This document shows positions 19,815-61,963 of a DNA stretch of 64,000 nt, piece after piece. Position numbers and translations under genes: made by a program. Each line of letters begins with the position of its first letter. Position 1 is the first letter of the stretch. Below the pieces are notes generated by a model that made no database searches, was not told where the DNA came from, and worked only from the letters and a program-made list of their open reading frames with translations. The DNA comes from Burkholderia sp. Bp8992 (GTDB lineage: Bacteria > Pseudomonadota > Gammaproteobacteria > Burkholderiales > Burkholderiaceae), in NCBI RefSeq assembly GCF_003853705.1, contig NZ_QTQI01000004.1:124001-188000 (forward strand), in the 5' to 3' direction.

Positions 19815-19918
19815 AGGTCTGTTGCAGGCCGCCTGAAGGCTTCGCGGCCGCCCCGTTTGGTACAATCACGAAGTTTCTCTATCCCCGCTGATGGCCGACC
19901 AGGCTGCGTGACCACACC

Positions 19919-24318: not shown

Positions 24319-24319
24319 C

Positions 24320-26361: not shown

Positions 26362-26365
26362 TGCG

Positions 26366-28100
<1,735 letters not shown>

Positions 28101-45273: not shown

Positions 45274-45285
45274 CGGCGGGAAACC

Positions 45286-46302: not shown

Positions 46303-46307
46303 GTCGG

Positions 46308-47273
46308 TTATTGTTGTGTATCGCGCGAACGATACCACGCGGCGGTCGCTTCGAGGCCCTGGCGGGTCGTATAGGGCGGATGCCAGCCCAGCACGCGCTT
46401 GATCCGGCCCGTGTCGAGCTGCAGGCTTCCGGTCAGCCGGTCGATGGCCGCACTGCGACCCGTCAGCTTGCCGAGCACACGCAACAGCGCCGGCGGCACC
46501 GCGATCAGCCGGGCCGACCGGCCAAGCGCGTCGCCGACGAGGCGCAGCAGGGCCGCGACCGACGGTGCATCGTCGTCGGCGACGTGAAAGCATTCGCCGG
46601 CCGCGCGCGGGTCGATTGCGCAACGCAGCAGCGCATCGGCGAGGTTGTCGACGTAGACGATGCTGCGGCGCGCCGAAACCGAGCCGAGCGGCAACGGCAT
46701 CCCGCGCGCGACCGCGTCCATCATCCGCAGGAAGTTGGCGCGGACGGACGGGCCGTAGACGAGCGGCGGACGAACGACGACGACGTCGAGCCCCGCCGAC
46801 GCGCCGAATTGCGCGAGCTGGCGCTCTGCCCGCAGTTTCGAACGGCCGTATGCGTCCTGCGGATCGGGTTCGGAAGCCTCGGACAACGGCACCCCGCCGT
46901 CGCCTTCACCGACCGCCTTGATGCTGCTCGCGAACACGATGCGCCGCACGCCGTGATGGCGCGCCGCCTCGGCGAGACGCAGCGTACCGGCGACGTTGGT
47001 GGCATCGAACGCGGCGTCGGGATCGGGCGACTCGTCGCGCATCACGTGCACGCGCGCGGCGAGATGGATCACGCAATCGGCGGCCAGGTCGGTGGGCCAC
47101 GCTTCAGCCAGCGCATCGAAATCGGCTGTGTCGTGCACCCACTCGCGCACGCCGTCGATGCAGCCGCCCGGACGCCGCACCAGTGCGGTAACCGTGTGCC
47201 CGGCCTCCAGCGCGCGGCGGCAGACTGCGCGGCCGACGAAGCCGTTCGCGCCGGTGACGACGAGGTGACTCAC
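46308..47273 (-). CDS. wbiG: NAD-dependent sugar epimerase/dehydratase (WbiG)
   Basis: 321-residue extended SDR. HLVVTGANGFVGRAVCRRAL (about 3-22, quoted as TGANGFVGRAVC) binds NAD, FASSIKAVGEG gives the catalytic Ser, and DAYGRSKLRAERQL carries YxxxK. It resembles WbpV/WbpK-type reductases that make UDP-D-QuiNAc or FucNAc from the keto sugar formed by the WbiI enzyme. It sits in the conserved wbiG-wbiH-wbiI order of Burkholderia O-antigen loci, 5 bp before wbiH. Its start overlaps the stop of the GT2 gene. Confidence 0.85.
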   Translation of the reverse strand: MSHLVVTGANGFVGRAVCRRALEAGHTVTALVRRPGGCIDGVREWVHDTADFDALAEAWPTDLAADCVIHLAARVHVMRDESPDPDAAFDATNVAGTLRLAEAARHHGVRRIVFASSIKAVGEGDGGVPLSEASEPDPQDAYGRSKLRAERQLAQFGASAGLDVVVVRPPLVYGPSVRANFLRMMDAVARGMPLPLGSVSARRSIVYVDNLADALLRCAIDPRAAGECFHVADDDAPSVAALLRLVGDALGRSARLIAVPPALLRVLGKLTGRSAAIDRLTGSLQLDTGRIKRVLGWHPPYTTRQGLEATAAWYRSRDTQQ

Positions 47274-48097: not shown

Positions 48098-48354
48098 CTC
48101 AAGTTAAATATTATCGAAGTGAACATGACGCACGGCGTTCGGATCGTAAGGTATTCGAAACATTTCGGCGGAGATCTTTTCCCGTGTACCCCATCGGAGC
48201 ATAGGCGACATGCAACCTGCCACGAACGTTTTCGCAATCACGATGTCGTACGGGTTCGATCATTCTCAATTGACGGTGGATGGATCACACGGGCCCGCAC
48301 CACCCATTCGGTGATGCGGCCAGGCCGTCGTTCATCGCACCTCATCCTCACAGC

Positions 48355-49170
48355 ATGTTCATCCTTTTCGGCTCGCCTCGATCGGGAACGACCCTGTTCA
48401 AGGAGTCGCTCAATCTACACAGCGACATCTTCATTCCGAACCAAACCACGCTCATCAGTCCGATCGCTCACGTCATGGGCTGCATCAGCGACTGGTCCGT
48501 TGCTCGCCCGCTGATCAGCAAGATCGTCAAGTCGACGGACGACTTCTCCGAAGTTCTTGAGCCCTATATCTCCGCCGCGGACATCGATGACGCGCTACGC
48601 GAAGCCGAACCGAACCTGGCAGGCGTACTCACATCGATCTATAGCCGTATCGCATCCAATGCAGGAAAGCGGTTGGGTGGAGACAAAACCCCTGACGATC
48701 TCCTTTCGATCCGGAAGCTAGAACAGGTCGGACTCCTGGACTCCGACATCAGGTTTCTCCATATCGTCCGCGACGTACGCGGCACGATGCTGTCCCTCAA
48801 AAACGTCTCGTGGGCACCGCCAGGCATCGAGGAATATTTCCCTCGCTTGTGGAACTACACCAATCTCCACTTGCACCATGCCATGCGCGAGCGTTCAAAT
48901 TACCTGTTCGTGCGCTACGAGGATCTCGTCTCGAACCCGCGCGATGTCCTGGCGCGTTCTGCTGGATTTCTCGGCCTATCGTTTGAAGAATCCATGCTGG
49001 ACAATTCGAAGCGGGCGCCGGTACTGCGCAATGATCAGAGTCACCTCAACCTGTCGCGGCCGTTCCTGAACGACCGCGCAACGGCTTGGCAGACGAGCCT
49101 GCCACCGGACATTACCGCCCACTGTTGCGCTACCGCGGCTGAGGGGCTGAAAGCGTTCGGATACATCTGA
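48355..49170 (+). CDS. Sulfotransferase family protein
   Basis: 271-residue P-loop-like sulfotransferase. The 5'-phosphosulfate loop FGSPRSGTTLFKESL lies at residues 5-19. The 3'-phosphate region is FLHIVRDVRGTMLSLKN with R139 and S147. The C-terminal YEDLVSNPRDVLARS is the conserved YEDL element. It would transfer sulfate from PAPS to a sugar hydroxyl. It lies on the strand opposite to all its neighbours (47270-57029), which suggests later insertion. I take the ATG at 48355 as start because the motif begins at once; an in-frame ATG at 48280 would add 25 residues. Confidence 0.82.
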   Translation: MFILFGSPRSGTTLFKESLNLHSDIFIPNQTTLISPIAHVMGCISDWSVARPLISKIVKSTDDFSEVLEPYISAADIDDALREAEPNLAGVLTSIYSRIASNAGKRLGGDKTPDDLLSIRKLEQVGLLDSDIRFLHIVRDVRGTMLSLKNVSWAPPGIEEYFPRLWNYTNLHLHHAMRERSNYLFVRYEDLVSNPRDVLARSAGFLGLSFEESMLDNSKRAPVLRNDQSHLNLSRPFLNDRATAWQTSLPPDITAHCCATAAEGLKAFGYI

Positions 49171-49263: not shown

Positions 49264-50241
49264 TCAGCCCGCCACGGCCGCGCGAAATGCATCGGCATTT
49301 CGTGCATCGACTGCATATTCATAGAATGCCGAACGAGTCGGAAATGCCGGAAGGACGGTCTGCAGAAAACACAGCATCTCCGTCATCCCTTTGTTCTGCA
49401 GGAAGCGCCTGAATGCACCAAGATCGCTTCCGTCCAATCGCGCAGAGAACATTCTCGGTCCCGACATCGCAAGTGCCTGCGCAATAACAGCCGCGATCTC
49501 GACTCGAACCTTGCTCAAGTCCTCCTTGATCGTGTTCCTTTCGTGCACGCGATACACGATATGCTGCACGTCCCGGTCGATATACACGCTGTCGTGGGCG
49601 AACGCGTACATCAAGAAGTCGAGATCGTGGCAGTAGCGAAGCGGTTGGAATCCACCCGCGGCTTGCCAGAGAGCCCGACTGAAAACCATATTCGACGTCG
49701 TCGCGACAAAATTCTCGTTCAGCAACGCCAGTTGCGGCAATCCAGTATCGCTCAGGAATCCGTATGCACGCGCCAGCCAGTCGATCGCGACGCCAGCATG
49801 CTGTTCGACGCCATGGTCGTCCATGATGCCGGCACGCCCCGCGATCAACCCCAGGCCGGGCCGCTCCTGAATCAGTTCCCGGCAACGCGCGAGCTTCTCC
49901 GAAGCAAACACGTCATCCGAATTCAGGACCGCGACATAGTCGCCGCGGGCAAGACCGATCGCACGATTGATCGTATTGTGGGCTCCCGCATTCTCCTGTC
50001 GACAGGCGCTTGCGTACGGAACGTTTGCAAGAAGCCGCGACGCAACGTCAAAGCCGTCATCGGACGAACCGTCGTCGATCAATATGATTTCATCGGCAGG
50101 AGAAGACTGCGACAACACGCTCTGCAACGTACCTTCGATATACCGTGCATGGTTATACAAAGGAATGACCACAGAAATGGTGGCGTTCGTCCGTGCAACA
50201 GACGCAGATACAGACGGCTTGCGGAATTTAAAGATTGACAT
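49264..50241 (-). CDS. GT2 glycosyltransferase
   Basis: 325-residue family 2 transferase. ATISVVIPLYNHARYIEGTL opens the domain. IILIDDGSSDDG and the DxD segment VLNSDDVFASEKLARC (about 110-125) are clear. A middle CHDLDFLMYAF motif aligns with the ED/Q-W loop. The C-terminal 100 residues are variable helices. Base composition is less GC-rich than the core genome, and the gene is on the minus strand with its O-antigen neighbours. The ATG at 50241 is used; a TTG at 50247 is also in frame. The sugar is unknown. Confidence 0.85.
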   Translation of the reverse strand: MSIFKFRKPSVSASVARTNATISVVIPLYNHARYIEGTLQSVLSQSSPADEIILIDDGSSDDGFDVASRLLANVPYASACRQENAGAHNTINRAIGLARGDYVAVLNSDDVFASEKLARCRELIQERPGLGLIAGRAGIMDDHGVEQHAGVAIDWLARAYGFLSDTGLPQLALLNENFVATTSNMVFSRALWQAAGGFQPLRYCHDLDFLMYAFAHDSVYIDRDVQHIVYRVHERNTIKEDLSKVRVEIAAVIAQALAMSGPRMFSARLDGSDLGAFRRFLQNKGMTEMLCFLQTVLPAFPTRSAFYEYAVDARNADAFRAAVAG

Positions 50242-50289
50242 ATTCAAGACCAGGCAATGATTTCATCCACAAAACACTCAAACGCGAAT

Positions 50290-50868
50290 TCATTGGATAT
50301 CGGTATCAAAGAACGGGAAGTAGCGTGACCGATAGCGCAAATCCCGCGTCCGTTCCTTTATGAACCGTGCCGGATTTCCGGCAACGATCGTGTACGGCTC
50401 GACATCACGTGTCACGACCGATCCTGCTCCCACAACGGCCCCTTCACCGATGCGAACGCCGGGACTGATGATCGCGCGAGCACCAATCCAGACGTGGTCC
50501 TCAATGACAACCGGTTTGCACAAGCAAACAAAATCCGGATTCTGCGGATCGTGTGTCAACGTCTGGATCAACGTATAGTGCGAAATATTGACGTTATTCC
50601 CGATCGTCAACGGAACGCGGCCATCCAGATAGGTATACCGATTTACGACGGTATTATTCCCAATCGAAATGTGATACCCCGTAACAAAACACCCCATCGC
50701 AATGCTTGAATCGCGACCAATCCTCACCTGACAAAACCTGCCAAGGAACCAATGCCTCACCCGATAAGGCATGTAATTCATGAACAAGTGATTACCCAGG
50801 TAAAAGCAAACCGCAGGCTTGAAGCGCCATCTGACAAAGCGGTAAAACGACTTGAGTGAGCTCACCAT
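50290..50868 (-). CDS. Left-handed beta-helix acyltransferase (O-acetyltransferase)
   Basis: 192-residue hexapeptide-repeat acyltransferase. Repeated turns are visible: VRIGRDSSIAMG, HISIGNNTVVN, LTIGNNVNISH, VVIEDHVWIGARAIISPGVRIGEGAVVGAGSVVTRDV (quoted in part: WIGARAIISPGVRIGEG). The AGNPARFIKER closing motif and the catalytic-His region near QTLTHDPQNPD are typical of acetyl-CoA-dependent sugar O-acetylases such as those of colanic acid loci. A basic helical N-terminus (SLKSFYRFVRWRFK) may touch the membrane. It should acetylate a sugar in this O-antigen. It is 14 bp after the next upstream gene. Confidence 0.88.
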   Translation of the reverse strand: MVSSLKSFYRFVRWRFKPAVCFYLGNHLFMNYMPYRVRHWFLGRFCQVRIGRDSSIAMGCFVTGYHISIGNNTVVNRYTYLDGRVPLTIGNNVNISHYTLIQTLTHDPQNPDFVCLCKPVVIEDHVWIGARAIISPGVRIGEGAVVGAGSVVTRDVEPYTIVAGNPARFIKERTRDLRYRSRYFPFFDTDIQ

Positions 50869-50882
50869 ATCCGCCTCTTCCG

Positions 50883-52121
50883 TTATCGGCTGTGCGCCCT
50901 GACCACATCTTCGATGATCGATTCGTAGCGCGTCACGATGTCGGCAAAGTTGTAGCTCGCGTAGATCTTGTCGCGCCCGCGCGCCCCTCTTTCACGCCAC
51001 TGTTCGGCGTTCGATGCCATCCGATCCATCGCATCCGCGAGAACTGGCGCAATCTTGTATTCCCTCGGTGCGTAGGCAAGCTCGTCGAGCAACTTCGAAT
51101 TCAGATTCGGAGTGTCGCCATACTCATTCGGGATCAGGATCCCGATATCGTCACCGTCGATGACTTCTGCTGAAGCGCCGGTGTCGGTCAGGATCATCGG
51201 CTTGCGGTAGAACATGGCCTCGTTCATCGCGATGCTCCAACCCTCGATGAACGACGGGAGGATGAACGCGTCCGCAACACGATGCACGTCTTCGACATCC
51301 GGGAAATAGCCCGGCATCAGAATATGTTGCTCCAGGCCATGCTCAACCAAATAGTGACGAAGCGCATCGACGTGAGGCGGATAGATCACGTTGCCGACGC
51401 AGAGAATCTTGACGTCGCGCCGGCGCGCCAGCAAATGACGCATCGCGTCCGCCATCACGTAGTGCCCCTTGTGCAAATTGTACGAGGCAACATTCGCGAA
51501 CACGTAATCGGAGTCTGACAAGCCAAGCTGGGTACGCGTCAGCTTCGGAGGTTGCTTTTCCCTTGCCTCGTGCTCGGACAAGATCAGACCGTTCGGTACT
51601 GTCACGACCTTGTCGTCCGACACGCCGAGGTTGGTCACCGCAAAGCGAGTCGCGTTCTTCGAAACCGACACGTAGCGATCGACATAGCGATCATTGTCGG
51701 CAAACGCCCGGGCCTGTTCGTCCGAAAAGAACGCATACACGTTGTGGATGAACGTGATGTTCGGAATCCCGAGGCGATCGAACAGCGGATAGCCGGTATT
51801 CGAGAAGTGAGACATCGAGATATCGACGCTCAACTCGGCCAGCAGCCTCTCGTAAGCCTCGAGCGTGTTCGCCGCGGGCAGTCCGACCACCCGCAGGCCG
51901 GCATTGCGTGCGACGGTACCAAGGTGCCCGACCTTTCCCGGGGTAACGATAGTGACGTCGAAACGAGCCCGATCGAATGCGATCGCGGAGTCAAGCACGA
52001 CCTTCTCGAGACCGCCCTTGTCGAACGACGCCAATTCGATCAGGACTCCAAGCCTCCCGTCGGTACGCGGACGACGTTGCGGCGGTGCTTTACGAAACAA
52101 TGAGAACAGGGAACGCAGCAT
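50883..52121 (-). CDS. GT4 glycosyltransferase
   Basis: 412-residue GT-B family 4 transferase. The N-domain contains GVLIELASFDKGGLEKVV, a GGLE loop. The C-domain has FANVASYNLHKGHYVMADAM (quoted as NVASYNLHKGHYV), LPGYFPDVEDV-like MPGYFPDVEDV, and the EX7E motif SFIEGWSIAMNEAMFYRKP (about 305-323). It starts at ATG 52121; a longer frame to 52379 overlaps the fusion gene. It follows the 1131-residue fusion gene by 25 bp on the same strand, so it is likely cotranscribed. The sugar is unknown. Confidence 0.88.
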   Translation of the reverse strand: MLRSLFSLFRKAPPQRRPRTDGRLGVLIELASFDKGGLEKVVLDSAIAFDRARFDVTIVTPGKVGHLGTVARNAGLRVVGLPAANTLEAYERLLAELSVDISMSHFSNTGYPLFDRLGIPNITFIHNVYAFFSDEQARAFADNDRYVDRYVSVSKNATRFAVTNLGVSDDKVVTVPNGLILSEHEAREKQPPKLTRTQLGLSDSDYVFANVASYNLHKGHYVMADAMRHLLARRRDVKILCVGNVIYPPHVDALRHYLVEHGLEQHILMPGYFPDVEDVHRVADAFILPSFIEGWSIAMNEAMFYRKPMILTDTGASAEVIDGDDIGILIPNEYGDTPNLNSKLLDELAYAPREYKIAPVLADAMDRMASNAEQWRERGARGRDKIYASYNFADIVTRYESIIEDVVRAHSR

Positions 52122-52146: not shown

Positions 52147-55100
52147 TCAGTGAATGTCGAATGCACCGGGGCGCAGATTGCGCTCGCCATCGAGGACGTT
52201 GATCGATGCGAGAAGGGTAGACATCCGGGCTGCAACGGTCTCCACCGAGTACTCTGCAACCGCAGCCGCAAACCCTGCATCGGCGACGCGCTGCCACAGT
52301 TGCGGGTCTTCGAGCAGTTTGACAATCGCTGCGGCGATTTCTTCGGCACTGTCACCCTCAAGCACCTGTTCGCCCGCAACGAGGCCCATCCCTTCGCTTG
52401 CGATCTTGCTCAACACGCTCGGTACGCCATGCAACAGACTTGAAACCACCTTGCCCTTGATACCGGCACCGAATCGAAGCGGCGCAACCGATACGCGAGC
52501 CACATCAAGCACATCGCCCAGATTCTCCACGAATCCGACGATCTTCACCCCCATCGCCGGATTGTCGAGTGAGCGGATGTAGTCGGTCACACCGCTGCCG
52601 ACGATACGCAACTCAGCGGTGGGCTGGCTTCGCCTGACGATCGGCCAAATCTCCTCCACCAGGAATTGCACGGCGTCGATATTCGGTCGATGCGCGAATC
52701 CGCCGACAAATACGACACCGGACCGCTCGTCGAACGTACGCCCCGAACGGGTCGGCATCCGTGGGATCGGAATGCGATGGACGTTCGCTTGTGGCGCAAG
52801 CTCTTTCAGAACGTCGTTCTCGAGACGACTCACCACGATGGTCGCATCGGCTTCGCGCACGGTCTGAATTTCCGTGCGACGCAGCATCAGCGCCTCTTCC
52901 AGTGCCTCGGGGGAGCGGTCGTGAATCGCCGCTCGCTCTTCACGGAGGTAATGGAGATCCACCGTGCCAAACACCAGCTTGACATGCGGCGCGCCACGAC
53001 GAAGCGGTTCGACCAGGTGACGAGCGACGATGATGCGTTGCGCAACGACCACGCGCGCATCCGCGACCTCCTCCATGAACAACTGGTTGAGCGACGCAAG
53101 ATCGCTCGCACACTGAACCCGCACGCCCCAACGCCGCAGCGCGTCCATATAGGCGACAGGGGGCGACTGTTCGAATGCCGCAATGAAGCTCACGTCGTAG
53201 CCGAACTCGCGGAAAATCCGCATATACCAGTAGACATCGACCGACCCGGAATCCTGATCGGGCTTCGGCACAAATGCATCGACGATCACGACCTTCGGTC
53301 GCTGCGGCGAGGTAAGCACATCGCCAAACGGCCGGTCGACACGGAACAACGTGTCGTAATGCTGCCGCAGCAGCCAACGCTCATACGCGTCATCCCAATT
53401 GCCATCATCCGTCGGCAGGCTCGCTTGCGCCGCATTCGACATGACGAAACGGGCGAACGGCTGCAGGTAGGTTTTCTCTCCCCGCGCAAACAGATCGAGC
53501 GTCAAGGCAACGAATCCGGTGGTGAGGACCGGCATCTCTTCCTCGAAACGCCATGCACGCCCCCAGGCATCGTTTCGAACCGCGATGAATCCGGGGCTCG
53601 CTGCCTTGATCTCGGTCACATTCTGGATCGTGACGTCATCGCTATTGACGCCCGCATGCGCGGCAAGAAGATGCGCGCCGGCATCGATGACGCCGCCAGC
53701 GGCATGCACCGTACCGTTCCTTTCCAGGATGACCGCGGAGACTGCAGTCGCGTCGGTGAAGCGTTCGAATGCTTCATCGATCGCCGCCAGCCATCCCGGA
53801 CGCGCCAGCAATACGTCCGACATCAGGACGATGAATTCGCTCCCGGACACATCACCAACATGCTCGGCCAGCGCGGACATCGACCGGGTTGCGCGGGGAT
53901 CGCCGATGACACGGACGCCGCTCTCCGCCGCCAGTTTTGCATCAATCTCGCCAACCGCGAATATCCGGTATGCGACGGACGTCGTATGGTGGCTCAGTGC
54001 CGCGAGACATGCGCGCATCGCCGCGCCGCCCTGCGATTGCAGCACGACAATCGTCGCTCGCGGCGCCGACGCCTGCTCGAACGGCCGAAGCGTCAACGAC
54101 GACAATCCATCGACCTCGGCGATCGGCGTGGACTGCCCTGTCGTCGCCCCTGGGCGCGATGCCGGCGCCGTGCCGGCACCCTGCTGCTTTGCGCGGATAC
54201 GGCGGGCTGCATAACGAAGGGGTTTCGTCACGCGCCAGGAGGTGGAGTTCGTGATTTGCTTCAACTGCCGCCGAAGGCTCTCGTTCTCGGTCAGCAATGC
54301 AACCGTCGACGGATCGCTCTCGCGCCCGCCGTCGCTGTCCTGAACCTGCGTGCCGAGCACGCCTTCCGCATGTTTCAACTGGTCGGTCAACTCATCGACC
54401 CGAGCAGCGAGAACCGTCGACGTGTTGTTCTGCACGTCGAGGGATTCAAGCACCTTGCGTGAGGTCGTCATCGCTTCGTCGCGACGTTCGGTCGCCTCGG
54501 TAAGCGTGGAAACGGTCCGATTCAACCGATCGACTTCGGCACTCAGGCGGCCGATTTCGGAATTGTTTGCGATGATGACGTCGTTCAAGCGCACGGTCTC
54601 GACCGTCAATCTGCCGATCTCTTCGTCGCGCCGGAGAACTTCGTCGGTCAGCCGCACGGCCTCGGCAGTCAGTCGGCCGATTTCGTCGCCGCGTGCCATG
54701 GTTTCCGTCGTCAGGCGGACAATTTCAGCCGCTTGAGTGCCGATATGCGCATTGCGCGCCTGATCGTAACGCGTAAACGACACCCCGCCATCGAGCAGAT
54801 TGTCGTCCATTTCCGGTATCGGGCCGTCAGACGCAATCGCAATGAAGTACACGGGATCGAGCACGCCCGCCGTCTCGCGATACTCGCCAATCTCGTGTTC
54901 GGACCAGCAGTTGATGCGGCGCTCACCGCTGCGCCCTTCCTTCTGCAGCAGCGATCCGGCAAGCGGCTTCTGTTCGTAGAGGACGAAATTCTGAAACCCG
55001 CTCTTGAGCCACTGGACGAATTCCTCGCGATCGAGCTCGCGCACATGGTATTCGTTGGGGGGCGATCCGGGCGGCGAATAGATCGGACGGTTCGGCGTCG

Positions 55101-55542
55101 AAATGATCATGATGCCGCCCGGCTTCAGCACCCGACGCGCCTCGCGCATGAACGCTTCATGCTCGCGAAAATGCTCCAGCGTCTCATAGGAGTTGAGAAT
55201 GTCGACCGACGCGTCGGCAAGGGGAATCTGCGTGGCGCTTCCCCACTCAAACCGGAGGTTAGGTACGTCACCATAGCGGGCCTTCGCATTTTCGACTGCT
55301 TGCGGGTCGACATCGACACCGGTCACGGAGCGCGCCGCCTGCGCGAGCAACGCGGACCCATAGCCCTCCCCCGAAGCGATATCGAGTACGTCCTTGCCTG
55401 CGCAGATCGCCGTCGAGAAAAGATACCGATGGTAATGCTCGTACTGAATAGGCCCCGCAACGCCCGGAAGATATCGCTCACCCGTGAACGAGTGGTCATC
55501 TTCCGAGGCTTTGAATCGAAAAATTCGCTCTTGCTTGATCAT
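52147..55542 (-). CDS. Methyltransferase / coiled-coil / GT2-like / GT4 fusion protein
   Basis: 1131-residue multidomain protein. Residues 35-240 are a class I SAM methyltransferase with DVLDIASGEGYGSALL (51-66) and NSYETLEHFREHE. Residues 268-430 form a long coiled coil whose EI(G/V)RL units start at 273, 287, 308 and 329, spacings of 14, 21 and 21. The motif STSWRVTKPLR follows (433-443). Residues 495-735 resemble a GT2 fold but have MSDVLL where a DxD is expected. Residues 748-1115 are a GT4 domain with FVGGFAHRPNIDAVQ and PLRFGAGIKGKVV. It starts at ATG 55542; a longer frame reaches 55884. It lies beside wzt. I infer a chain-modifying and possibly length-setting role. Confidence 0.87.
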   Translation of the reverse strand: MIKQERIFRFKASEDDHSFTGERYLPGVAGPIQYEHYHRYLFSTAICAGKDVLDIASGEGYGSALLAQAARSVTGVDVDPQAVENAKARYGDVPNLRFEWGSATQIPLADASVDILNSYETLEHFREHEAFMREARRVLKPGGIMIISTPNRPIYSPPGSPPNEYHVRELDREEFVQWLKSGFQNFVLYEQKPLAGSLLQKEGRSGERRINCWSEHEIGEYRETAGVLDPVYFIAIASDGPIPEMDDNLLDGGVSFTRYDQARNAHIGTQAAEIVRLTTETMARGDEIGRLTAEAVRLTDEVLRRDEEIGRLTVETVRLNDVIIANNSEIGRLSAEVDRLNRTVSTLTEATERRDEAMTTSRKVLESLDVQNNTSTVLAARVDELTDQLKHAEGVLGTQVQDSDGGRESDPSTVALLTENESLRRQLKQITNSTSWRVTKPLRYAARRIRAKQQGAGTAPASRPGATTGQSTPIAEVDGLSSLTLRPFEQASAPRATIVVLQSQGGAAMRACLAALSHHTTSVAYRIFAVGEIDAKLAAESGVRVIGDPRATRSMSALAEHVGDVSGSEFIVLMSDVLLARPGWLAAIDEAFERFTDATAVSAVILERNGTVHAAGGVIDAGAHLLAAHAGVNSDDVTIQNVTEIKAASPGFIAVRNDAWGRAWRFEEEMPVLTTGFVALTLDLFARGEKTYLQPFARFVMSNAAQASLPTDDGNWDDAYERWLLRQHYDTLFRVDRPFGDVLTSPQRPKVVIVDAFVPKPDQDSGSVDVYWYMRIFREFGYDVSFIAAFEQSPPVAYMDALRRWGVRVQCASDLASLNQLFMEEVADARVVVAQRIIVARHLVEPLRRGAPHVKLVFGTVDLHYLREERAAIHDRSPEALEEALMLRRTEIQTVREADATIVVSRLENDVLKELAPQANVHRIPIPRMPTRSGRTFDERSGVVFVGGFAHRPNIDAVQFLVEEIWPIVRRSQPTAELRIVGSGVTDYIRSLDNPAMGVKIVGFVENLGDVLDVARVSVAPLRFGAGIKGKVVSSLLHGVPSVLSKIASEGMGLVAGEQVLEGDSAEEIAAAIVKLLEDPQLWQRVADAGFAAAVAEYSVETVAARMSTLLASINVLDGERNLRPGAFDIH
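54520..54726 (-). repeat. Heptad-phased tandem repeats encoding the coiled coil of the fusion protein
   Basis: In the minus-strand gene, codons 273-341 contain four related units beginning EI(G/V)RL(T/S). Unit starts are 14, 21 and 21 codons apart, so every shift is a whole number of heptads. Related 63-bp DNA units are seen, for example GCGGCCGATTTC-type runs near 54547, 54610 and 54673 on the plus strand. This suggests tandem duplication that preserves coiled-coil register. Confidence 0.75.
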
Positions 55543-55658: not shown

Positions 55659-57029
55659 CTACATCTCTTCGGACAGTCCGGCATGCACCATCGGAACGCC
55701 CACGAGCGCATGTCTCACGCGGGATGCGTGCACGCGAAGGGGTAATGCGTCGTGGATCCAGTGATGCTGAACGTGGTCGTATTGCGTACCCTCCGCAATC
55801 GCGACGTTGATCGAGAAAGCACCCGCCGGAAGAACCGGCATAACGAAGGTGAACTCCGCGCACAGCACGTCGCCCGCGTCGCACGAAACGGGCCGTTCGG
55901 CGAAGGTCGCGAACGTGTTGTCTCCCGTCAGTTCCTGGCCTCGTTCGTTCTTGAGATAGAAACCGACGATCGGGGAAACCAGCGGCTCGGCGATTTCAAT
56001 TGTCACGCGCAACGTAATCGACTCGCCACCGACGATCCACTCGAGCCTGCGCTCCTGATCGTCGAAGAATGCGACATCGACGATTCGCGCCCCCCCCTCG
56101 CCAAAAGCCTGCGACTCGTGATTGAACGCCAGCACCTGGATGTCGTTGCGAAACGGGGACGCGTTGAAGCGTTCGCGACGGAAATCCACTGCGCTTTCGT
56201 GAGGTTCCAACTCCACGGGCACCGCCGCCACGACCGCTCCGCCCGTGCTGTAGCGCGCCTCCAGATACGCCGCACAAACTTCCGCCGGCTTCCCCTGCGC
56301 GACAATCCGTCCACTGTCGATCCAGATGACGCGTGAGCACAGCTTTCTGATCGTCGACGTATCGTGACTGACGAACAGGATGGTTCCATGTTGCTTGAAT
56401 TCGTGCAGGAAACGAAAGCACTTCTGATTGAAAAATGCGTCGCCAACCGCCAGTGCCTCGTCGATCACCAGGATGTCCGCGTCGACATGCGCGATGACTG
56501 CAAACGCCAGACGGACAAACATGCCGCTCGAATAGGTCTTGACGGGCTGATCGATAAACTCGCCGATGTCCGCGAAATCGACGATCGACTCGTAGCGATC
56601 GTCGATCTGCTGACGAGACAGCCCGTACAGTTGTGCATTCAGATAGATGTTTTCGCGGCCGGTGTACTCGACGTCGAAGCCTGAGCCGAGTTCGAGCAGC
56701 GCGGCAACCTTGCCGCGCACGGTGATATTGCCGCGAGTCGGAGCCAGCGTGCCGCAGACGATCTGGAGCAAGGTGCTCTTGCCCGACCCGTTGCGCCCCA
56801 CGATGCCGACGGTTTCTCCGGCTGCAACGGCGAAACTCACGTCATGAAGGGCCCAAAATACGTTCGACTGCACTTCGGCTTGCCGATCCGTCGCCTGTCG
56901 CGTCGCCGAGCCTTGCACGAGTCGCGCAATGGCACCGAGCACACCTCTCTTCAACCGGTCGCCGGGTCGCTCGTAGGACTCAAAACCCTTGCTGATGCCG
57001 TGAGATTCGATCGCGATATTGTCAGACAT
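55659..57029 (-). CDS. wzt: O-polysaccharide ABC transporter ATPase Wzt (copy 1) with C-terminal carbohydrate-binding domain
   Basis: 456-residue ABC ATPase. The Walker A is GRNGSGKST (78-86), the N-terminal segment is SKGFESYERPGDRLKRGV, the signature is YSSGMFVRLAFA, and the Walker B is DILVIDEALAVGD. Residues about 300-456 form a separate Wzt_C beta-sandwich domain (WIVGGESITLRVTIE, FVMPVLPAGAFSINVAIAEG) that in other systems recognises the modified end of the O-chain. It is on the minus strand, divergent from wzm, and precedes the fusion gene by 116 bp. It is a clear paralogue of the second wzt at 58345. Confidence 0.92.
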   Translation of the reverse strand: MSDNIAIESHGISKGFESYERPGDRLKRGVLGAIARLVQGSATRQATDRQAEVQSNVFWALHDVSFAVAAGETVGIVGRNGSGKSTLLQIVCGTLAPTRGNITVRGKVAALLELGSGFDVEYTGRENIYLNAQLYGLSRQQIDDRYESIVDFADIGEFIDQPVKTYSSGMFVRLAFAVIAHVDADILVIDEALAVGDAFFNQKCFRFLHEFKQHGTILFVSHDTSTIRKLCSRVIWIDSGRIVAQGKPAEVCAAYLEARYSTGGAVVAAVPVELEPHESAVDFRRERFNASPFRNDIQVLAFNHESQAFGEGGARIVDVAFFDDQERRLEWIVGGESITLRVTIEIAEPLVSPIVGFYLKNERGQELTGDNTFATFAERPVSCDAGDVLCAEFTFVMPVLPAGAFSINVAIAEGTQYDHVQHHWIHDALPLRVHASRVRHALVGVPMVHAGLSEEM

Positions 57030-57530
57030 ATGGATTCATTCTTCGCATCCCGTCCGGACACGATGCCAACCTATGGATTGCGATCGGATGGATCGGTCCA
57101 GTGATGTGCCATCAGTCGCTGATGGTAAACAACGAATCCTACCACGACGCATCATTTCATAATATGGAAAATCGACACTGGAAGCCCCGGACAAGGCGTT
57201 CTCCGGGGCCGGAATTCCGTTCGAGGTCGGCTCACCGCCTGGAAATGCCAACGATCGGCGCTGATCCGCTATCCCGTACACGCATCCGGGATTGCTTGCG
57301 ACATTTACACTTCGACACACGCCGCGACCGGAGCAACGTCGGTCCGCAGGTGAACCACTATGCGATAATTCGCATGCACCAGAATGGCCTCCGGGCCAAG
57401 CAAAGCACTGGACCGCAGGCGCTGCACCGGCCTGACGCCCGCCTGCGATCATCGAATCGCGGCTGCACGGATCCGCTTTCCCGCCGGCTCGTTGTGCCGT
57501 GCCACACCCGCTGACCTTGTCGTCGAACTT
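57030..57530. other. 501-bp divergent region between wzt copy 1 and wzm
   Basis: No convincing gene. Frames across it are short and start or end inside neighbours. TGCGATAATTCGCA at 57361-57374 is a perfect 5-bp-arm palindrome and also contains an extended -10 (TGCGATAAT). It could be the wzm promoter, with a leader of about 155 nt; the -35 is poor. An A+T-rich stretch at 57120-57175 may hold the wzt promoter. The remainder looks like featureless spacer or decayed coding DNA. Confidence 0.45.
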
Positions 57531-58355
57531 ATGCAAAGCTTTAGTCTTTCGCCGCGATCTCTCGCCGCTTCACTGGTGAAAAATCGCCGCCTGATGCTCG
57601 ATCTCGCGCGCCGCGACGCCGTGGGACGTTACAAGGGGTCCTTTCTAGGCATCTTCTGGTCGCTGCTCACCCCCCTCATGATGCTGAGTGTCTATACGTT
57701 CGTGTTCAGCGAAGTGTTCAAGTCCCGCTGGAACGATGCATCACACGCAGCATCGAAGGGCGAGTTCGCCGTGGTGCTGTTCGCCGGAATGATCGTGTTC
57801 AACCTGTTTTCCGAATGCGTGAACAGGGCACCGGGACAAATCCTGTCCCACTCCAACTTCGTCAAGAAGATCGTGTTCCCGCTCGAGATCCTGCCGTGCG
57901 TGACGCTGTTGTCGGCACTGTTTCACCTCAGCGTGAGCGTCAGCATCCTGCTGGTGGCCGAATGGATCGTCGTCGGCAGCGTGCCGTTGACTGCTTTTCT
58001 GTTCCCCATCGTGCTCGCACCGCTCTGTGTATTCATCATGGGCGTGAGCTGGATCCTGTCCGCCACCGGCGTCTATCTCCGCGACATCGGACAAACCGTG
58101 GGTATCGTCATCACTGCGATGATGTTCCTCTCGCCCGTGTTCTTCCCGGTGTCTTCGCTGCCGGAGCAGTTCCGCGGCTTCGTCTATTTGAATCCGATGA
58201 CCTATCCAATCGAACAAGGTCGTGACGTTCTCATTTGGGGGCACATGATCGACTGGAATCGGTGGTCCATCTATTCGATCATGGCCATCGCCGTTGCATG
58301 GATTGGCTTCGCTTGGTTCCAGAAGACGCGCCGGGGTTTCGCCGATGTCATCTGA
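57531..58355 (+). CDS. wzm: O-polysaccharide ABC transporter permease Wzm
   Basis: 274-residue ABC-2 type permease with six membrane helices. The cytoplasmic N-terminus has LARRDAVGRYKGSFLGIFWSLLTPLMMLSVYTFVF (quoted as RRDAVGRYKGSFLGIFW), the canonical Wzm gate helix. NFVKKIVFPLEILP is the coupling segment. The C-terminal FLSPVFFPVSSLPEQFRGFVYLNPMTYPIE is also family-typical (quoted as SPVFFPVSSLPEQFRG). It exports undecaprenyl-linked O-polysaccharide across the inner membrane. It overlaps the second wzt by 11 bp. It is the only Wzm in the window, although there are two Wzt proteins. Confidence 0.93.
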   Translation: MQSFSLSPRSLAASLVKNRRLMLDLARRDAVGRYKGSFLGIFWSLLTPLMMLSVYTFVFSEVFKSRWNDASHAASKGEFAVVLFAGMIVFNLFSECVNRAPGQILSHSNFVKKIVFPLEILPCVTLLSALFHLSVSVSILLVAEWIVVGSVPLTAFLFPIVLAPLCVFIMGVSWILSATGVYLRDIGQTVGIVITAMMFLSPVFFPVSSLPEQFRGFVYLNPMTYPIEQGRDVLIWGHMIDWNRWSIYSIMAIAVAWIGFAWFQKTRRGFADVI

Positions 58356-59745
58356 CGTTGTCATCCGCGCCGCGTCGCTCGCCAAAGGATTCGAGTCCTA
58401 TCGCAAACCGTCCGACCGTCTGAAACGCAGTGTCCTCAGCTTGCTGAGCGGGCTTGCGCCGGTTCCGACCGTACGCGAATCGCTGCGCCAGCGTGCGCAG
58501 GCGTGCACCCGGATGTTCTGGGCGCTTAAAAACGTCGATTTCGAGATTAAGCGCGGAGAAACGGTTGGCATCATCGGCCGCAATGGGTCCGGCAAGAGCA
58601 CGTTGCTGCAAATCATCTGCGGCACACTTGCTCCCACGAGTGGCACGGTAGAAACCCAGGGCCGCATTGCCGCGTTGCTCGAACTGGGTTCCGGGTTCGA
58701 TGCCGAATACTCTGGCCGCGAAAACATCTACATCAACGGCCAGCTGCACGGCCTGACCCGCGAGCAGATCGATTCGCGCGTCGACGAGATCATTGCATTC
58801 GCCGATATCGGCCACTTCATCGATCAGCCCGTCAAGACCTATTCGAGCGGCATGTTCGTCCGCCTCGCGTTCGCTGTCATCGCGCACGTCGATGCAGACA
58901 TCCTGGTCATCGACGAGGCGCTGGCCGTTGGCGACGCATTCTTTACGCAAAAATGCATGCGTTTCCTGCGTCGCTTTCAACAGACCGGGACGGTTTTGTT
59001 CGTCAGCCATGATTCGTCCGCCATCCGCAGCCTGTGCGACCGGGTCATCTGGCTGGATAGAGGTGTGATGCGCGAGTCGGGAAGCGCGAAAACCGTCTGT
59101 ATGAACTACTTCGAGGCGTTTTATCGGAAAAGTGGCGAGGACGGCGTGTCTCGTGTTGAATCCGACACTAGGAGGTTCGACGTAACCGCCATCGGCAACG
59201 AACCACGCGCAGATCAGCGCAGCCAATTCCCGCGCAACACGATCGATACACTACCGGCGCTGCCGAGCGTCGATCTGGATCCCCACGAACTTCCCGCGCA
59301 ACGTGAATCGATGCTGATCGAATCCACGACCCTCACCAACACGAAAGGGGCGCCGGTTACCTGGGTCACAGGTGGCGAACGGGTTTCACTTCGGATTCGC
59401 ATCCGTCGAACCGAATCCGACACGCCGCACATTGCGTTCTTCGTCAAGGACCGACTCGGACAGCCACTGTTTGGTGACGATAGCGTATTCGCGCTGCGGG
59501 AAGTCGGTTCGCCGTCACCGAACGGAAGCCATGTCGTCGCAGAGTTTCATTTCGGCATGCCGATTCTTCCGCCCGGCGACTACGCGTTCACCGTGCTCGT
59601 CGCGGCACCGACCGACAATCGCATCCGCATACTCGACTGTGTGCACGACGCCATTATCGTGAAGTCGGAGTCTGCCCGTGTCGCGACCGGCCTCGTCGGT
59701 GTTCCGATGAATCGCATCGAGCTCTTTGTTCGCGAAACGGCATAA
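58345..59745 (+). CDS. wzt: O-polysaccharide ABC transporter ATPase Wzt (copy 2) with C-terminal carbohydrate-binding domain
   Basis: 466-residue ABC ATPase. Residues 1-250 align without gaps to copy 1: AKGFESYRKPSDRLKRSV, Walker A GRNGSGKST again at 78-86, YSSGMFVRLAFA and DILVIDEALAVGD. The C-terminal domain (about 325-466) is a diverged Wzt_C with WVTGGERVSLRIRI and FHFGMPILPPGDYAFTVLV. Both copies end with a VGVPM motif. It is coupled to wzm by an 11-bp overlap and is therefore its primary partner. The different binding domain suggests a different recognised chain end. Confidence 0.92.
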   Translation: MSSDVVIRAASLAKGFESYRKPSDRLKRSVLSLLSGLAPVPTVRESLRQRAQACTRMFWALKNVDFEIKRGETVGIIGRNGSGKSTLLQIICGTLAPTSGTVETQGRIAALLELGSGFDAEYSGRENIYINGQLHGLTREQIDSRVDEIIAFADIGHFIDQPVKTYSSGMFVRLAFAVIAHVDADILVIDEALAVGDAFFTQKCMRFLRRFQQTGTVLFVSHDSSAIRSLCDRVIWLDRGVMRESGSAKTVCMNYFEAFYRKSGEDGVSRVESDTRRFDVTAIGNEPRADQRSQFPRNTIDTLPALPSVDLDPHELPAQRESMLIESTTLTNTKGAPVTWVTGGERVSLRIRIRRTESDTPHIAFFVKDRLGQPLFGDDSVFALREVGSPSPNGSHVVAEFHFGMPILPPGDYAFTVLVAAPTDNRIRILDCVHDAIIVKSESARVATGLVGVPMNRIELFVRETA

Positions 59746-59806
59746 CACGCATCAGTCCGTTTGAGGATCCGATCAACCCACACCGACTGGGCCCCGAATT
59801 ACCCAT

Positions 59807-61963
59807 ATGACTTCCGGCCAACATCGCGCCCCACACGATTCGACCGAGCACGATGCCCATTCCCGTGACGACGTAGAGGGCAGCGCATCGGCACAGCGTA
59901 TTGTCGAACTAGAACGTGAACTCGCGGGCCTGCGCAAGGAAAATGTCCTGCGTGCGAATGCCGAAGCCGATCGAATCCGGCTCGAGGATGAACTGCGAAA
60001 CATCCACGCGTCGCTATCGTGGCGCCTGACTTCACCACTTCGACGCGTGACCTCTGCAATCCGCGTGGCCGGCATCGTCGTGGCAACGATCCGGCGCCAG
60101 GCGGTCGTCCGCGGCAGCCTGCCGAGCGCGCTCGGGCACTACGCGGCCATGCTCAAGAGGGAAGGCCTCCAGGGAATCCGCGCTCGATCCAGGCGCCTCC
60201 GTGATGGCGGAGGATTCGCCGATGCCCCGCCGCCCGATGAGGTCTATCATGACTGGATCGACAAGTTCGATCGGTTCGGCGACGCGGAACGTGCGGCCGC
60301 CGAAAGCGCGCTGCAATCGTTCGAACATCGGCCGCTGATTTCAATCGTCGTTCCGACGTATAACAGCAATCCGTCGCACCTCGAAGCCATGATTCGTTCC
60401 GTGCAGGAGCAGGTCTACCCGTTCTGGGAGCTCTGTATCGCGGACGACGCATCTCCGGACGAGACTACGCGCGAAATCCTAACGCGCCATCAGGCGCAGG
60501 ATTCTCGAATCCGACTGGTGTTTCGTACCAAGAATGGTCATATCTCCGAAGCCAGCAATAGCGCCCTCTCGCTGGCAACCGGTGAATTCGTCGCGCTGCT
60601 GGATCACGACGACCTCCTCCCGCCTCACGCACTGTTCGTCGTTGCGCAATACGTCAACCGCTACCCTCGCGCACGCATGTTCTACAGCGACGAGGACAAG
60701 CTGAACGAACGCGGGCAACGAACGGCCCCGTACTTCAAGTGCGACTGGAATCCTGCGTTGTTCCGTACGCAGAACCTGTTCTCGCATCTCGGCGTCATCG
60801 AAACCGCGCTGGTGAGGCAAGCGGGCGGTTTTCGGCGCGGATTCGAAGGAAGCCAGGACTATGATCTCGCGCTTCGATGCGTCGAGATTGCCGGCGATGA
60901 CAGCGTCGTTCATATTCCGCATGTGCTCTATCACTGGCGCATCACGGCCAGCAGCACTGCAGGAACGAGTCATGCCAAGCCGTACGCGTCGACAGCGGCG
61001 CAGCGCGCCATTGAAGGTCATCTCTCGCGCTCCGGCATCGCCGCAAGCGTGGAACAGCCTTTCGGCGAGTTGCCGGTTTTCCGGGTGAGGTACGCGATAC
61101 CCTCCCCTGCCCCTAAGGTGTCCATCATCATCCCGACGCGTGACGGCGTCGCGTTGCTCCGCCAGTGCGTCGAAAGCATCGTCGGACGCACGGTGTACCC
61201 GAACTACGAAATCATCGTCGTCGACAACGGCAGTACCGACGAGGCGACCCTCGCCTATTTCCGGGAGATATTGCTTCGCCCGAACTTCAGGATCGTCAGG
61301 GACGACTCGCCGTTCAATTTCTCTGCGCTGAACAATACCGCCGCAGCAGCAGCGACGGGCACTTTCGTATGCCTGCTGAACAACGATACCGAAGTCATCT
61401 CGCCTGACTGGCTCGACGAAATGGTCGGCATCGCGTCGCAACCGGGCGTCGGTACAGTCGGTGCAGCCCTGTGGTATCCGGACAATTCGCTTCAGCACGG
61501 CGGCGTGCTGCTGGGGCTCGGCGGTATCGCGGGCCACATGCACCACATGCTCAAGCGAGGGAATTTCGGCTACTTCAACCGCGCGGTGTCCGTGCAGGAG
61601 ATGTCTGCCGTCACGGCTGCCTGCCTGCTTGTCAGCAAGCGAATCTATGACGAAGTACACGGCCTTGACGAATCATTTGCCGTCGCCTTCAATGACGTGG
61701 ACTTCTGCTTGCGGGTGCGAGACGCAGGTTACCGAAACGTATGGACGCCGTTCGCCGAGTTGTACCACTACGAATCCGCAACACGCGGTTCCGACATGGC
61801 GCCTGACAAGTACCAGCGCTTCGTGAGTGAGGTGCGTCGAATGGAAGAGCGATGGGGTACCGCACTGAACCGCGACCCGGCGTACAACCCAAATCTTTCC
61901 CTCGCCGTGGACGTCTTGCCGTTCACGTTGGCCAATCCTCCGCGCATCGGAGCGCTCGACTAG
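59807..61963 (+). CDS. Double-GT2 glycosyltransferase with N-terminal coiled coil
   Basis: 718-residue protein. Residues 28-68 form a short coiled coil, followed by SLSWRLTSPLRR (69-80), the same motif found in the fusion protein. The first GT2 domain (177-380) has SIVVPTYNSNP and DHDD (266-269). The second GT2 domain (437-660) has SIIIPTRDGVALLRQC, VVDNGSTDEA and NNDTE (525-529), and the late GLDESFAVAFNDVDFCLRV motif. Two intact active sites imply two linkages made by one polypeptide. It follows wzt copy 2 by 61 bp and probably shares its transcript. It is a likely polymerase of the O-polysaccharide repeat. Confidence 0.9.
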   Translation: MTSGQHRAPHDSTEHDAHSRDDVEGSASAQRIVELERELAGLRKENVLRANAEADRIRLEDELRNIHASLSWRLTSPLRRVTSAIRVAGIVVATIRRQAVVRGSLPSALGHYAAMLKREGLQGIRARSRRLRDGGGFADAPPPDEVYHDWIDKFDRFGDAERAAAESALQSFEHRPLISIVVPTYNSNPSHLEAMIRSVQEQVYPFWELCIADDASPDETTREILTRHQAQDSRIRLVFRTKNGHISEASNSALSLATGEFVALLDHDDLLPPHALFVVAQYVNRYPRARMFYSDEDKLNERGQRTAPYFKCDWNPALFRTQNLFSHLGVIETALVRQAGGFRRGFEGSQDYDLALRCVEIAGDDSVVHIPHVLYHWRITASSTAGTSHAKPYASTAAQRAIEGHLSRSGIAASVEQPFGELPVFRVRYAIPSPAPKVSIIIPTRDGVALLRQCVESIVGRTVYPNYEIIVVDNGSTDEATLAYFREILLRPNFRIVRDDSPFNFSALNNTAAAAATGTFVCLLNNDTEVISPDWLDEMVGIASQPGVGTVGAALWYPDNSLQHGGVLLGLGGIAGHMHHMLKRGNFGYFNRAVSVQEMSAVTAACLLVSKRIYDEVHGLDESFAVAFNDVDFCLRVRDAGYRNVWTPFAELYHYESATRGSDMAPDKYQRFVSEVRRMEERWGTALNRDPAYNPNLSLAVDVLPFTLANPPRIGALD

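Follow-up and report, generated by a model that had tools for sequence, protein, structure and literature searches.

Gene neighbourhood of the fusion protein

Within the window (the whole stretch of DNA that was analysed, 64 kb), a single open frame on the minus strand runs from an ATG at 55542 to a stop at 52147 and encodes a protein of 1131 aa, here called P0001. Nine of the ten homologues in the alignment have this start methionine, and eight of those nine are distinct. The gene shares its strand and direction with those for WztA, a GT4 protein, a hexapeptide acyltransferase, and a further GT2 protein. The following genes were assigned at the locus:

49264..50247, minus strand: further GT2-type glycosyltransferase (profile match, 1.8e-19)
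50290..50868, minus strand: hexapeptide-repeat acyltransferase (Pfam)
50883..52121, minus strand: stand-alone GT4, downstream of the fusion (Pfam)
52147..55542, minus strand: fusion protein P0001 with methyltransferase, coil, coil-base module, pseudo-GT2, and GT4 (open reading frame and Pfam)
55659..57029, minus strand: WztA, upstream of the fusion; ABC ATPase carrying a Wzt_C end-recognition domain (Pfam; Walker A/B, signature, and H motifs all found)
57519..58355, plus strand: Wzm permease, the sole Wzm-profile match in the 64-kb window (ABC2_membrane, 1.4e-26)
58348..59745, plus strand: WztB, second ABC ATPase with Wzt_C (Pfam)
59807..61963, plus strand: GT2-GT2 protein with two Pfam GT2 domains, plus a short coil and a coil-base module of its own (motif at residue 69)

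An initial sequence-only reading had placed P0001 beside ABC transporter ATPases with end-recognition domains, and indeed both Wzt proteins carry Wzt_C (Pfam, 6.9e-37 and 4.6e-21). WztB and WztA are 64% identical in the ATPase part and 33% in the Wzt_C part. The combination of one Wzm with two CBM-bearing Wzt proteins is unusual; it was seen in 13 further loci. Wzm and Wzt were detected in 31 of the 34 fetched family loci, and Wzt_C in 23 of those 34. In eight loci (seven distinct), a P0001-like protein lies beside a Wzt without CBM, so reading of a cap by Wzt is not universal; L004 and L064, close relatives of P0001, are among them. Separate GT2-GT2 and GT4 genes were present in all 12 close-relative loci (window included), with the stand-alone GT4 adjoining the fusion gene in the 11 others too. 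The GT2-GT2 protein is the likely polymerase. A WbpM-like gene (Pfam) and genes labelled WecA-like and galE-like by eye also lie nearby.

Methyltransferase, predicted coiled coil, and coil base

P0001 was divided into five regions, all encoded on the minus strand:

54823..55491, minus strand: class I SAM methyltransferase, residues ~18-240, motif DIASGEGYG (Pfam and homology with O8 WbdD)
54352..54759, minus strand: main coiled-coil segment (candidate ruler), residues ~262-397, with 21-residue internal repeats (heptad periodicity)
54157..54315, minus strand: coil-base module, residues 410-462, comprising the last coil turns, STSWRVTKPLR, and a basic tail without acidic residues (pattern and profile common to WbdD of O8, O9, and O99)
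53353..54096, minus strand: pseudo-GT2 domain, residues ~483-730 (homology to GT2, motif positions, dN/dS)
52195..53310, minus strand: GT4 (GT-B) domain, residues ~745-1116, with Ser in place of the second Glu of EX7E (Pfam and motif comparison)

The sequence-only reading had described a four-part fusion free of kinase and Kdo transferase. The 1131-aa frame, the methyltransferase, and the GT4 domain stood (Pfam), whereas Pfam did not recognise the GT2-like part as GT2 even at E <= 1 and the continuity of the coil is doubtful. Both absences were borne out: a kinase domain, which is a feature of the O9/O9a subtype of WbdD, had no Pfam match in P0001 at E <= 1, and the N-terminal position, occupied by a Kdo transferase in proteins of the WbbB O12 type, holds a methyltransferase instead (Pfam).

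Methyltransf_11 matched P0001 at residues 53-147 (2e-23). As E. coli O8 WbdD we used the 425-aa product of L120:8457-9734 (minus strand) of strain IAI1, which we take to be WbdD from its place and length. The P0001 methyltransferase aligned with this protein at 29% over 102 aa (E 3e-7), and the family profile found it at 3e-11. On sequence grounds, the N-terminal domain of P0001 is a WbdD-related class I SAM methyltransferase.

Only ~20 residues separate the methyltransferase from the coil. Residues 262-432 displayed heptad periodicity: 2 of 2000 shuffles attained their power at period 3.5, and the spectrum peaked at 3.46. The same test gave no heptad signal in the methyltransferase, GT2-like, and GT4 regions. 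By eye, the 21-residue repeats read EIGRL..E.VRL. The signal was uneven, with two of nine 42-residue windows (315-356 and 343-384) falling below 5% of shuffles. P0001 is Pro-free from 256 to 410, and Gly/Pro at 394, 397, 405, 406, and 411 break the coil ahead of its last short segment. We would call the predicted coil about 136 residues, followed by a hinge and about 20 more. Of the ~160-residue coil proposed earlier, the periodicity over 262-432 is thus retained, but the Gly/Pro break and the count of two in nine windows leave an unbroken run in doubt.

In homologue L058 the peak lay at 3.44 and power at exactly 3.5 failed, as it did in several distant relatives (e.g. L067, L074, L077, L078, L080, and L084). 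Homologues L002 and L011 showed two clean 21-residue gaps in the aligned coil. We nevertheless do not claim a ruler that changes its length only by heptad multiples, since other gaps measured 18, 13, 11, 8, 4, and fewer residues. At the DNA level no tandem repeats corresponding to the 21-residue units were found, the repeats being visible in the protein only; one unrelated 11-base array turned up in that search. Spacing between methyltransferase and coil-base motif ranges from 143 to 209 residues among natural relatives; it is 175 in Paraburkholderia phenoliruptrix (homologue L001) and 143 in P. bannensis. Measured as for P0001, the distance in WbdD from the coil start (residue 460, as given in PMC3482155) to the module (592) is 132 residues. 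By our own arithmetic this corresponds to ~196 Å at 1.485 Å per residue, in line with the roughly 200 Å coil cited in PMC6286764, and we counted it in favour of a ruler.

The coil base follows the pattern S-x-S-W-R-x-T-x-P-x-R, preceded by the end of the coil and followed by a basic tail. Here P0001 aligned with O8 WbdD at 38% over 42 aa (1e-5) and with the O9 protein at 41% over 39 aa (1.5e-5). A hold-out profile containing no E. coli rows matched 3 of 244 E. coli ORFs, which were exactly the three WbdD-type proteins. The module was present in 34 of 35 related full-length proteins, a count in which 12 proteins were training rows and one was a duplicate. It also occurs in L105, a stand-alone methyltransferase-coil-module protein of 297 aa adjoining a CBM-bearing Wzt. 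Among the papers listed by a literature search on the motif letters (20 of 476), none dealt with the coil-base motif, although we do not claim that the motif is unpublished. Possibly, the module binds or anchors at the inner membrane.

The two glycosyltransferase-like domains

Active GT2 enzymes are characterised by DDxS, NND/DxD, and EDxD motifs. Where GT2 enzymes carry DDxS, NND, EDxD, and HxEG, P0001 reads GEID, SDV, GFVA, and MSNA, and none of the key residues of the four motifs is present. No intact GT2 motif was found in any of the 12 close relatives (P0001 included), while all motifs were found in 14 of 14 distant relatives. EDxD was lost in all 12; single residues persisted at other sites, namely the last Asp of NND (6/12), one Asp of DDxS (3/12), and the Glu column of HxEG (1/12). 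Decay is therefore not uniform among close relatives, with P0001 itself keeping no motif residue. An alignment artefact was rejected as the cause, because a profile built from the intact GT2 domains of the distant relatives still finds the P0001 domain (5e-10) and a scripted count over the motif columns found no motif intact in the 12. The role of DXD in GT2 enzymes is described in PMC11231755. With dN/dS values of 0.14-0.36 in seven divergent pairs, the pseudo-GT2 domain is, by this measure, under selection despite the loss of its motifs.

For the GT4 domain, Glyco_trans_1_4 matched residues 942-1079 (1.2e-19). EX7E is a characteristic GT4 motif; its second Glu is replaced by Ser in all 12 close relatives, and 2 of the 14 distant relatives are also without that Glu. 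The GT4 core is otherwise conserved. For the six divergent pairs that could be computed, dN/dS was 0.05-0.14; such strong constraint is consistent with an active enzyme. The near-identical pair L057/L058, with few changes, reverses the order (pseudo-GT2 0.085, GT4 0.34). Activity of the GT4 domain is uncertain on this evidence.

The sequence-only reading had assigned polymerisation to P0001 as well. Given the loss of GT2 motifs in 12 of 12 close relatives and a GT4 without the second EX7E Glu, this is doubtful: the GT2-like domain lends it no support, and the GT4 domain is equivocal. The separate GT2-GT2 and GT4 genes fit chain elongation better.

Proposed role, alternatives, and known systems

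The best reading of P0001 is a WbdD-type chain terminator, i.e. a methyl-capping ruler of an O antigen exported by an ABC transporter, to which we assign a probability of roughly 0.6. It draws on WbdD homology at both ends of the coil, the coil between them, and the adjoining Wzt with its end-binding domain. The earlier proposal of a methyl-capping, length-setting enzyme thereby gained support from the O8 WbdD homology of both methyltransferase and coil base. In such a scheme, the coil-base module would anchor P0001 at the inner membrane, and the methyltransferase would sit at the coil's distal end. A growing chain long enough to reach the enzyme would be methylated at its non-reducing end; the methyl cap would halt elongation and be read by the Wzt_C of the neighbouring WztA ahead of export. 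The C-terminal half (pseudo-GT2 and GT4) may serve mainly as a docking platform, the part played in WbdD by a short C-terminal region. Elongation would fall to the GT2-GT2 protein, itself equipped with this coil-base module, together with the neighbouring GT4 and GT2 proteins.

An integrated terminator and polymerase, in which the GT4 (perhaps with the odd GT2) adds repeat-unit sugars and the methyltransferase caps, seems unlikely to us. The layout of P0001 does match that of Klebsiella O7 ORF6 (PMC11231755) and of WsaE (PMC2943079), the GT4 core is otherwise conserved and strongly constrained, and the NND site is partly kept in half of the close relatives. Moreover, there are distant relatives (L069-L075) whose GT2 motifs are complete and whose fetched stretch gave no match for a separate GT2-GT2 protein. 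Against this stand the missing EDxD and HxEG sites and the want of even one complete GT2 motif in any of the 12 close relatives, the Glu to Ser change in 12 of 12 (tempered by the two distant relatives that also lack this Glu), and the occurrence in every one of the 12 loci of GT2-GT2 and GT4 genes apart from the fusion. By motif comparison, two catalytically competent GT modules of the O7 ORF6/WsaE type were not found in P0001.

Improbable, to a further degree, is a methyltransferase that decorates internal or side-chain sugars, with the coil a mere enzyme scaffold and chain length set by the exporter. The seven distinct loci pairing P0001-like proteins with a CBM-free Wzt are consistent with it, as O1/O2 systems have such a Wzt and length set by export (PMC11231755), and the acceptor is not readable from sequence. 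Homology to O8 WbdD in both enzyme and coil base and the presence of Wzt_C in 23 of 34 loci argue against it. Least probable by far is that the same machine makes not LPS O antigen but a capsule-like or secondary polysaccharide. An S-layer glycan exported by Wzm/Wzt is the product that WsaE works on (PMC2943079), but the nearby WbpM-like, WecA-like, and galE-like genes fit an O-antigen region.

Beyond the methyl-capping ruler itself, we tentatively offer a broader and rather doubtful scheme. In it, S-x-S-W-R-x-T-x-P-x-R would be a general anchoring and docking module of ruler-type terminators, common to WbdD, many fusions, and partner polymerases; in this lineage an integrated polymerase would have decayed to a pseudoenzyme platform docking a separate module-bearing polymerase, and export would be gated by a mixed exporter in which two different end-reading Wzt subunits share one Wzm. 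Chain-length measurement of bacterial surface sugars is understood for only a handful of prototypes, and the present comparison supplies a testable sequence marker by which a set of fusions can be connected with WbdD of E. coli. P0001 appears to be a case in which a polymerase domain has turned into a non-catalytic part of a ruler machine. With spacings of 143-209 residues in natural relatives, length prediction could be tried across existing strains.

Chain terminators are reportedly covered by a census of Mann, Kimber and Whitfield in 2019, which may already list the P0001 type. Like O8 WbdD, P0001 has an N-terminal methyltransferase, a coil-like segment, and an adjoining Wzt, with homology at both coil ends (coil base SRSWRITQPLR in O8 WbdD, STSWRVTKPLR in P0001). 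Unlike P0001, O8 WbdD ends after the coil-base region, without GT domains and with a separate polymerase gene, and its stretch from methyltransferase to coil base is shorter. The E. coli O9/O9a and O99 WbdD-type proteins likewise share methyltransferase and coil-base module but lack GT domains, and in O9a WbdD a kinase separates the methyltransferase from the coil (PMC3482155). The sequence-only reading invoked capping by methylation (and phosphorylation) in O8/O9a; O8 WbdD is a methyl-only terminator (PMC3482155). Klebsiella O12 WbbB also unites terminator, coil, and two GT modules, but there a glycosyltransferase adds Kdo as the cap, in place of the methyl group proposed for P0001 (PMC11231755).

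Two systems resemble P0001 by description only. (i) Klebsiella pneumoniae O7 ORF6, shown to be a terminator, is a single polypeptide that includes a methyltransferase, a coil, and, at its C-terminus, two GT modules; it differs in having a kinase, a CBM-like domain, and activity in both GT2 modules (PMC11231755). (ii) WsaE of Geobacillus stearothermophilus, with Wzm/Wzt export, has an N-terminal methyltransferase linked to a 2-O-methyl cap and two GT domains; it differs in its three active domains, its S-layer glycan product, and a coil going unmentioned in the available part of PMC2943079, which describes methylation in vitro as independent of chain length, a point that counts against the ruler reading. 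The order of parts, earlier described as different, is thus already published for O7 ORF6 and, coil aside, for WsaE, and fusion of a capping methyltransferase to transferases is already known from both.

The fusion protein P0001 and its gene neighbourhood

The fusion gene encoding P0001 is flanked by exporter and glycosyltransferase genes (window coordinates):

55542 to 52147, minus strand: P0001, 1131 codons
55659-57029, minus strand: ATPase WztA, in line with the fusion gene
50883-52121, minus strand: stand-alone GT4, in line with the fusion gene
50290-50868, minus strand: hexapeptide acyltransferase, in line with the fusion gene
49264-50247, minus strand: GT2, in line with the fusion gene
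57519-61963, divergent from the fusion gene: permease Wzm, ATPase WztB and a GT2-GT2 protein
48280-49170, plus strand: sulfotransferase-family gene, O-antigen region
62147-62968, minus strand: stand-alone methyltransferase, adjoining the polymerase side of the cluster

A WbpM-like gene lies further along the window, as do genes labelled by eye as WecA-like and galE-like. The glycan of this region may be sulfated, and a second glycan methylation by the enzyme at 62147-62968 is possible. Positions 1-39990 were covered by an ORF list and a profile scan, and the scan returned weaker ABC-type ATPase matches (24319-26358 and 26339-27055, plus strand) and a methyltransferase match (19892-20572, plus strand).

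Pfam assigned residues 53-147 of P0001 to a class I methyltransferase (2e-23) and residues 942-1079 to a GT4-type domain (1.2e-19), with no GT2 match even at E ≤ 1. Within the linker (262-432), hydrophobic residues recurred with a period of 3.46 residues, and the power at 3.5 was equalled by 2 of 2000 shuffles; the same test detected no such period in three folded regions of P0001. Two of nine short linker windows fell under 5% of shuffles, and Gly/Pro residues at 394-411 break the heptad run, after which the last coil segment follows. The sequence-only reading had outlined four parts (methyltransferase, ruler-like coiled coil, GT2-like domain, GT4). This outline holds overall, with two exceptions: continuity of the coil is not demonstrated, and the GT2 part is degenerate.

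Relatives, domain combinations and a GT2 domain decayed by sequence

A related-locus search yielded six loci, four of them with full-length homologues of 51-59% identity (Paraburkholderia phenoliruptrix, P. bannensis, Burkholderia sp. Ac-20379 and Caballeronia arationis). Homologues at E ≤ 1e-100 were found in 5 of 65 genomes of the genus; at E ≤ 1e-40, 32 of 398 genomes of the family gave matches, many covering one part only. For comparison, fusion proteins were divided into group A (n = 12: P0001, L001-L004, L057-L060 and L062-L064, with L057 and L058 nearly identical) and the more distant group B (n = 14). A stand-alone GT4 and a GT2-GT2 gene are present in each of the 12 group A loci, the window's among them. 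Relatives of the window's sulfotransferase-family gene were present in L002, L057, L058, L062, L063, L081, L082 and L085.

GT2 motif residues were counted column by column in an alignment of both groups. In 12/12 group A proteins, DDxS has lost its Ser, NND its first Asn, EDxD both Asp and HxEG its His; 14/14 group B proteins keep them all. Six group A proteins (L057, L058, L003, L059, L002, L060) still have the final Asp of NND, three (L059, L004, L064) one Asp of DDxS, and one a Glu in the HxEG column; P0001 retains none of these residues. The group B GT2 profile matched P0001 at 5e-10 (weakest in group A: L001, 0.0012). By sequence, the domain is GT2-related and a pseudoenzyme. Its dN/dS was 0.14-0.36 in seven divergent pairs, with GT4 tighter at 0.05-0.14 in six computable pairs; these values are rough because several pairs are near synonymous saturation and the near-identical pair L057/L058, with few changes, reversed the order (0.085 for pseudo-GT2 versus 0.34 for GT4). 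They point to a domain that is still under selection. At the EX7E motif of GT4, Ser replaces the second Glu in all group A proteins, and 12 of 14 group B proteins have Glu there; other core positions are conserved. Together, the decay of GT2 and the change in GT4 weaken the earlier proposal of an additional polymerising role for P0001.

The methyltransferase-coil-module part is joined to (i) pseudo-GT2 and GT4 in group A; (ii) GT2 and GT4 in most of group B; (iii) two GT2 in L068 and L076; (iv) GT4 and RgpF in L077 and L078; and (v) WbsX, GT4 and GT2 in L080 and L082. Compared with window positions 43390-47273, L082 has a 99% identical WbpM and a 94% identical epimerase, and the slot of the window fusion holds another fusion protein of 1720 residues, made up of methyltransferase, coil, WbsX, GT4 and GT2. 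Judged from these sequences, the pair looks like an O-antigen swap.

A coil-base module shared with WbdD

The coil ends in a module with the motif S-x-S-W-R-x-T-x-P-x-R and a basic tail. As prototypes we used E. coli HS (O9), IAI1 (O8) and an O99 strain, whose proteins are annotated as methyltransferases in the records and were named WbdD from place and length. P0001 aligned best with O9 WbdD at the coil base (416-454, 41%, 1.5e-5). Two stretches aligned with O8 WbdD: the methyltransferase at 29% (3e-7) and the coil base at 38% (1e-5). Written as a regular expression, the motif hit 42 of the 1652 ORFs of ≥150 aa, spurious frames included, that came from 36 sources; five sources shuffled 20 times each gave no hit. 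These 42 comprised 30 fusion-family proteins (one of them a duplicate; L067 and L084 have their methyltransferase in a gene of its own), O9 WbdD and 11 GT2-GT2 proteins, among them the window's (59807-61963), which has its own short coil and coil base (SLSWRLTSPLR, motif at residue 69). The deviating O99 protein (SRSWMITKPYR) was missed by the expression and detected by profile only.

Built without E. coli rows, the profile was run on the 244 ORFs of four E. coli stretches and detected three, namely the O9 (3e-10), O8 (5e-10) and O99 (3e-8) proteins; the full profile gave nothing significant against six E. coli glycosyltransferases. Beyond the motif, the 38-residue tail of P0001 contains 8 basic residues and the 60-residue tail of O9 WbdD contains 14, with no acidic residue in either. 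WbdD is described as membrane-held via a C-terminal amphipathic helix (PMC3447403), and we infer that the motif marks a WbdD-type membrane anchor. Across the phylum, the module occurred at E ≤ 0.001 in 26 of 200 genomes, a set that does not include the nearest genome (G001). Among 20 module loci fetched from 32 matches, 11 had Wzt within the fetched stretch. One adjoins a CBM-bearing Wzt and appears to encode an O8-like minimal terminator form:

L105:9771-10661, minus strand: methyltransferase, short coil-like stretch and coil base, 297-residue frame

From PVYF at the methyltransferase end to the motif, P0001 has 205 residues, and the close relatives measured have 143-209. Two of them are short by exactly 21 residues (three heptads) inside the coil; other gaps are no multiples of seven. 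The main P0001 coil of ~136 residues would span ~200 Å if fully helical, similar to the roughly 200 Å cited for WbdD (PMC6286764).

The exporter and comparison with known terminators

The profile scan identified one Wzm and two Wzt with the end-recognition domain Wzt_C in the window. ATPase motifs are present in both WztA and WztB, which share 64% identity in their ATPase parts and 33% in Wzt_C. One Wzm with two CBM-bearing Wzt was seen in 13 further fetched loci:

Window 55659-59745; L001-L003, L057-L060, L062, L063, L080-L082, L085: two-Wzt layout

WztA lies beside the fusion gene and WztB beside Wzm, usually also beside GT2-GT2; L001 also has another Wzm/Wzt pair, apart from these genes. 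Comparison of four loci with the window gave end-domain identities of 65-72% for WztA and 45-61% for WztB. The fetched loci were hand-picked rather than drawn at random: 31 of 34 (33 distinct) hold Wzm and Wzt and three hold neither, with Wzt_C in 23 of the Wzt-holding loci and missing in eight (seven distinct). The latter count against a strict coupling of cap and Wzt_C:

L004, L064, L065, L066, L068, L076, L077: terminator-like fusions beside a Wzt without end-recognition domain

The best reading of P0001, to which we assign a probability of about 0.62, is a methyl-capping ruler. All function, including the methyl capping and length setting proposed earlier, is deduced from sequence. In the sources cited, methyl alone forms the O8 WbdD cap and O9a WbdD recruits the polymerase via its C-terminal region (PMC3482155). 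O7 ORF6, a chain terminator, is reported to combine methyltransferase, kinase, CBM-like domain, coil and two active GT2 modules (PMC11231755); in WsaE, two active GT domains are fused to a capping methyltransferase, and methylation by WsaE in vitro was independent of chain length (PMC2943079). Because of O8 WbdD, O7 ORF6 and WsaE, the kind of protein is already known; new to us are the two-Wzt layout, a pseudo-GT2 inside a terminator, and the sequence module that WbdD, P0001-type fusions and a partner polymerase have in common.
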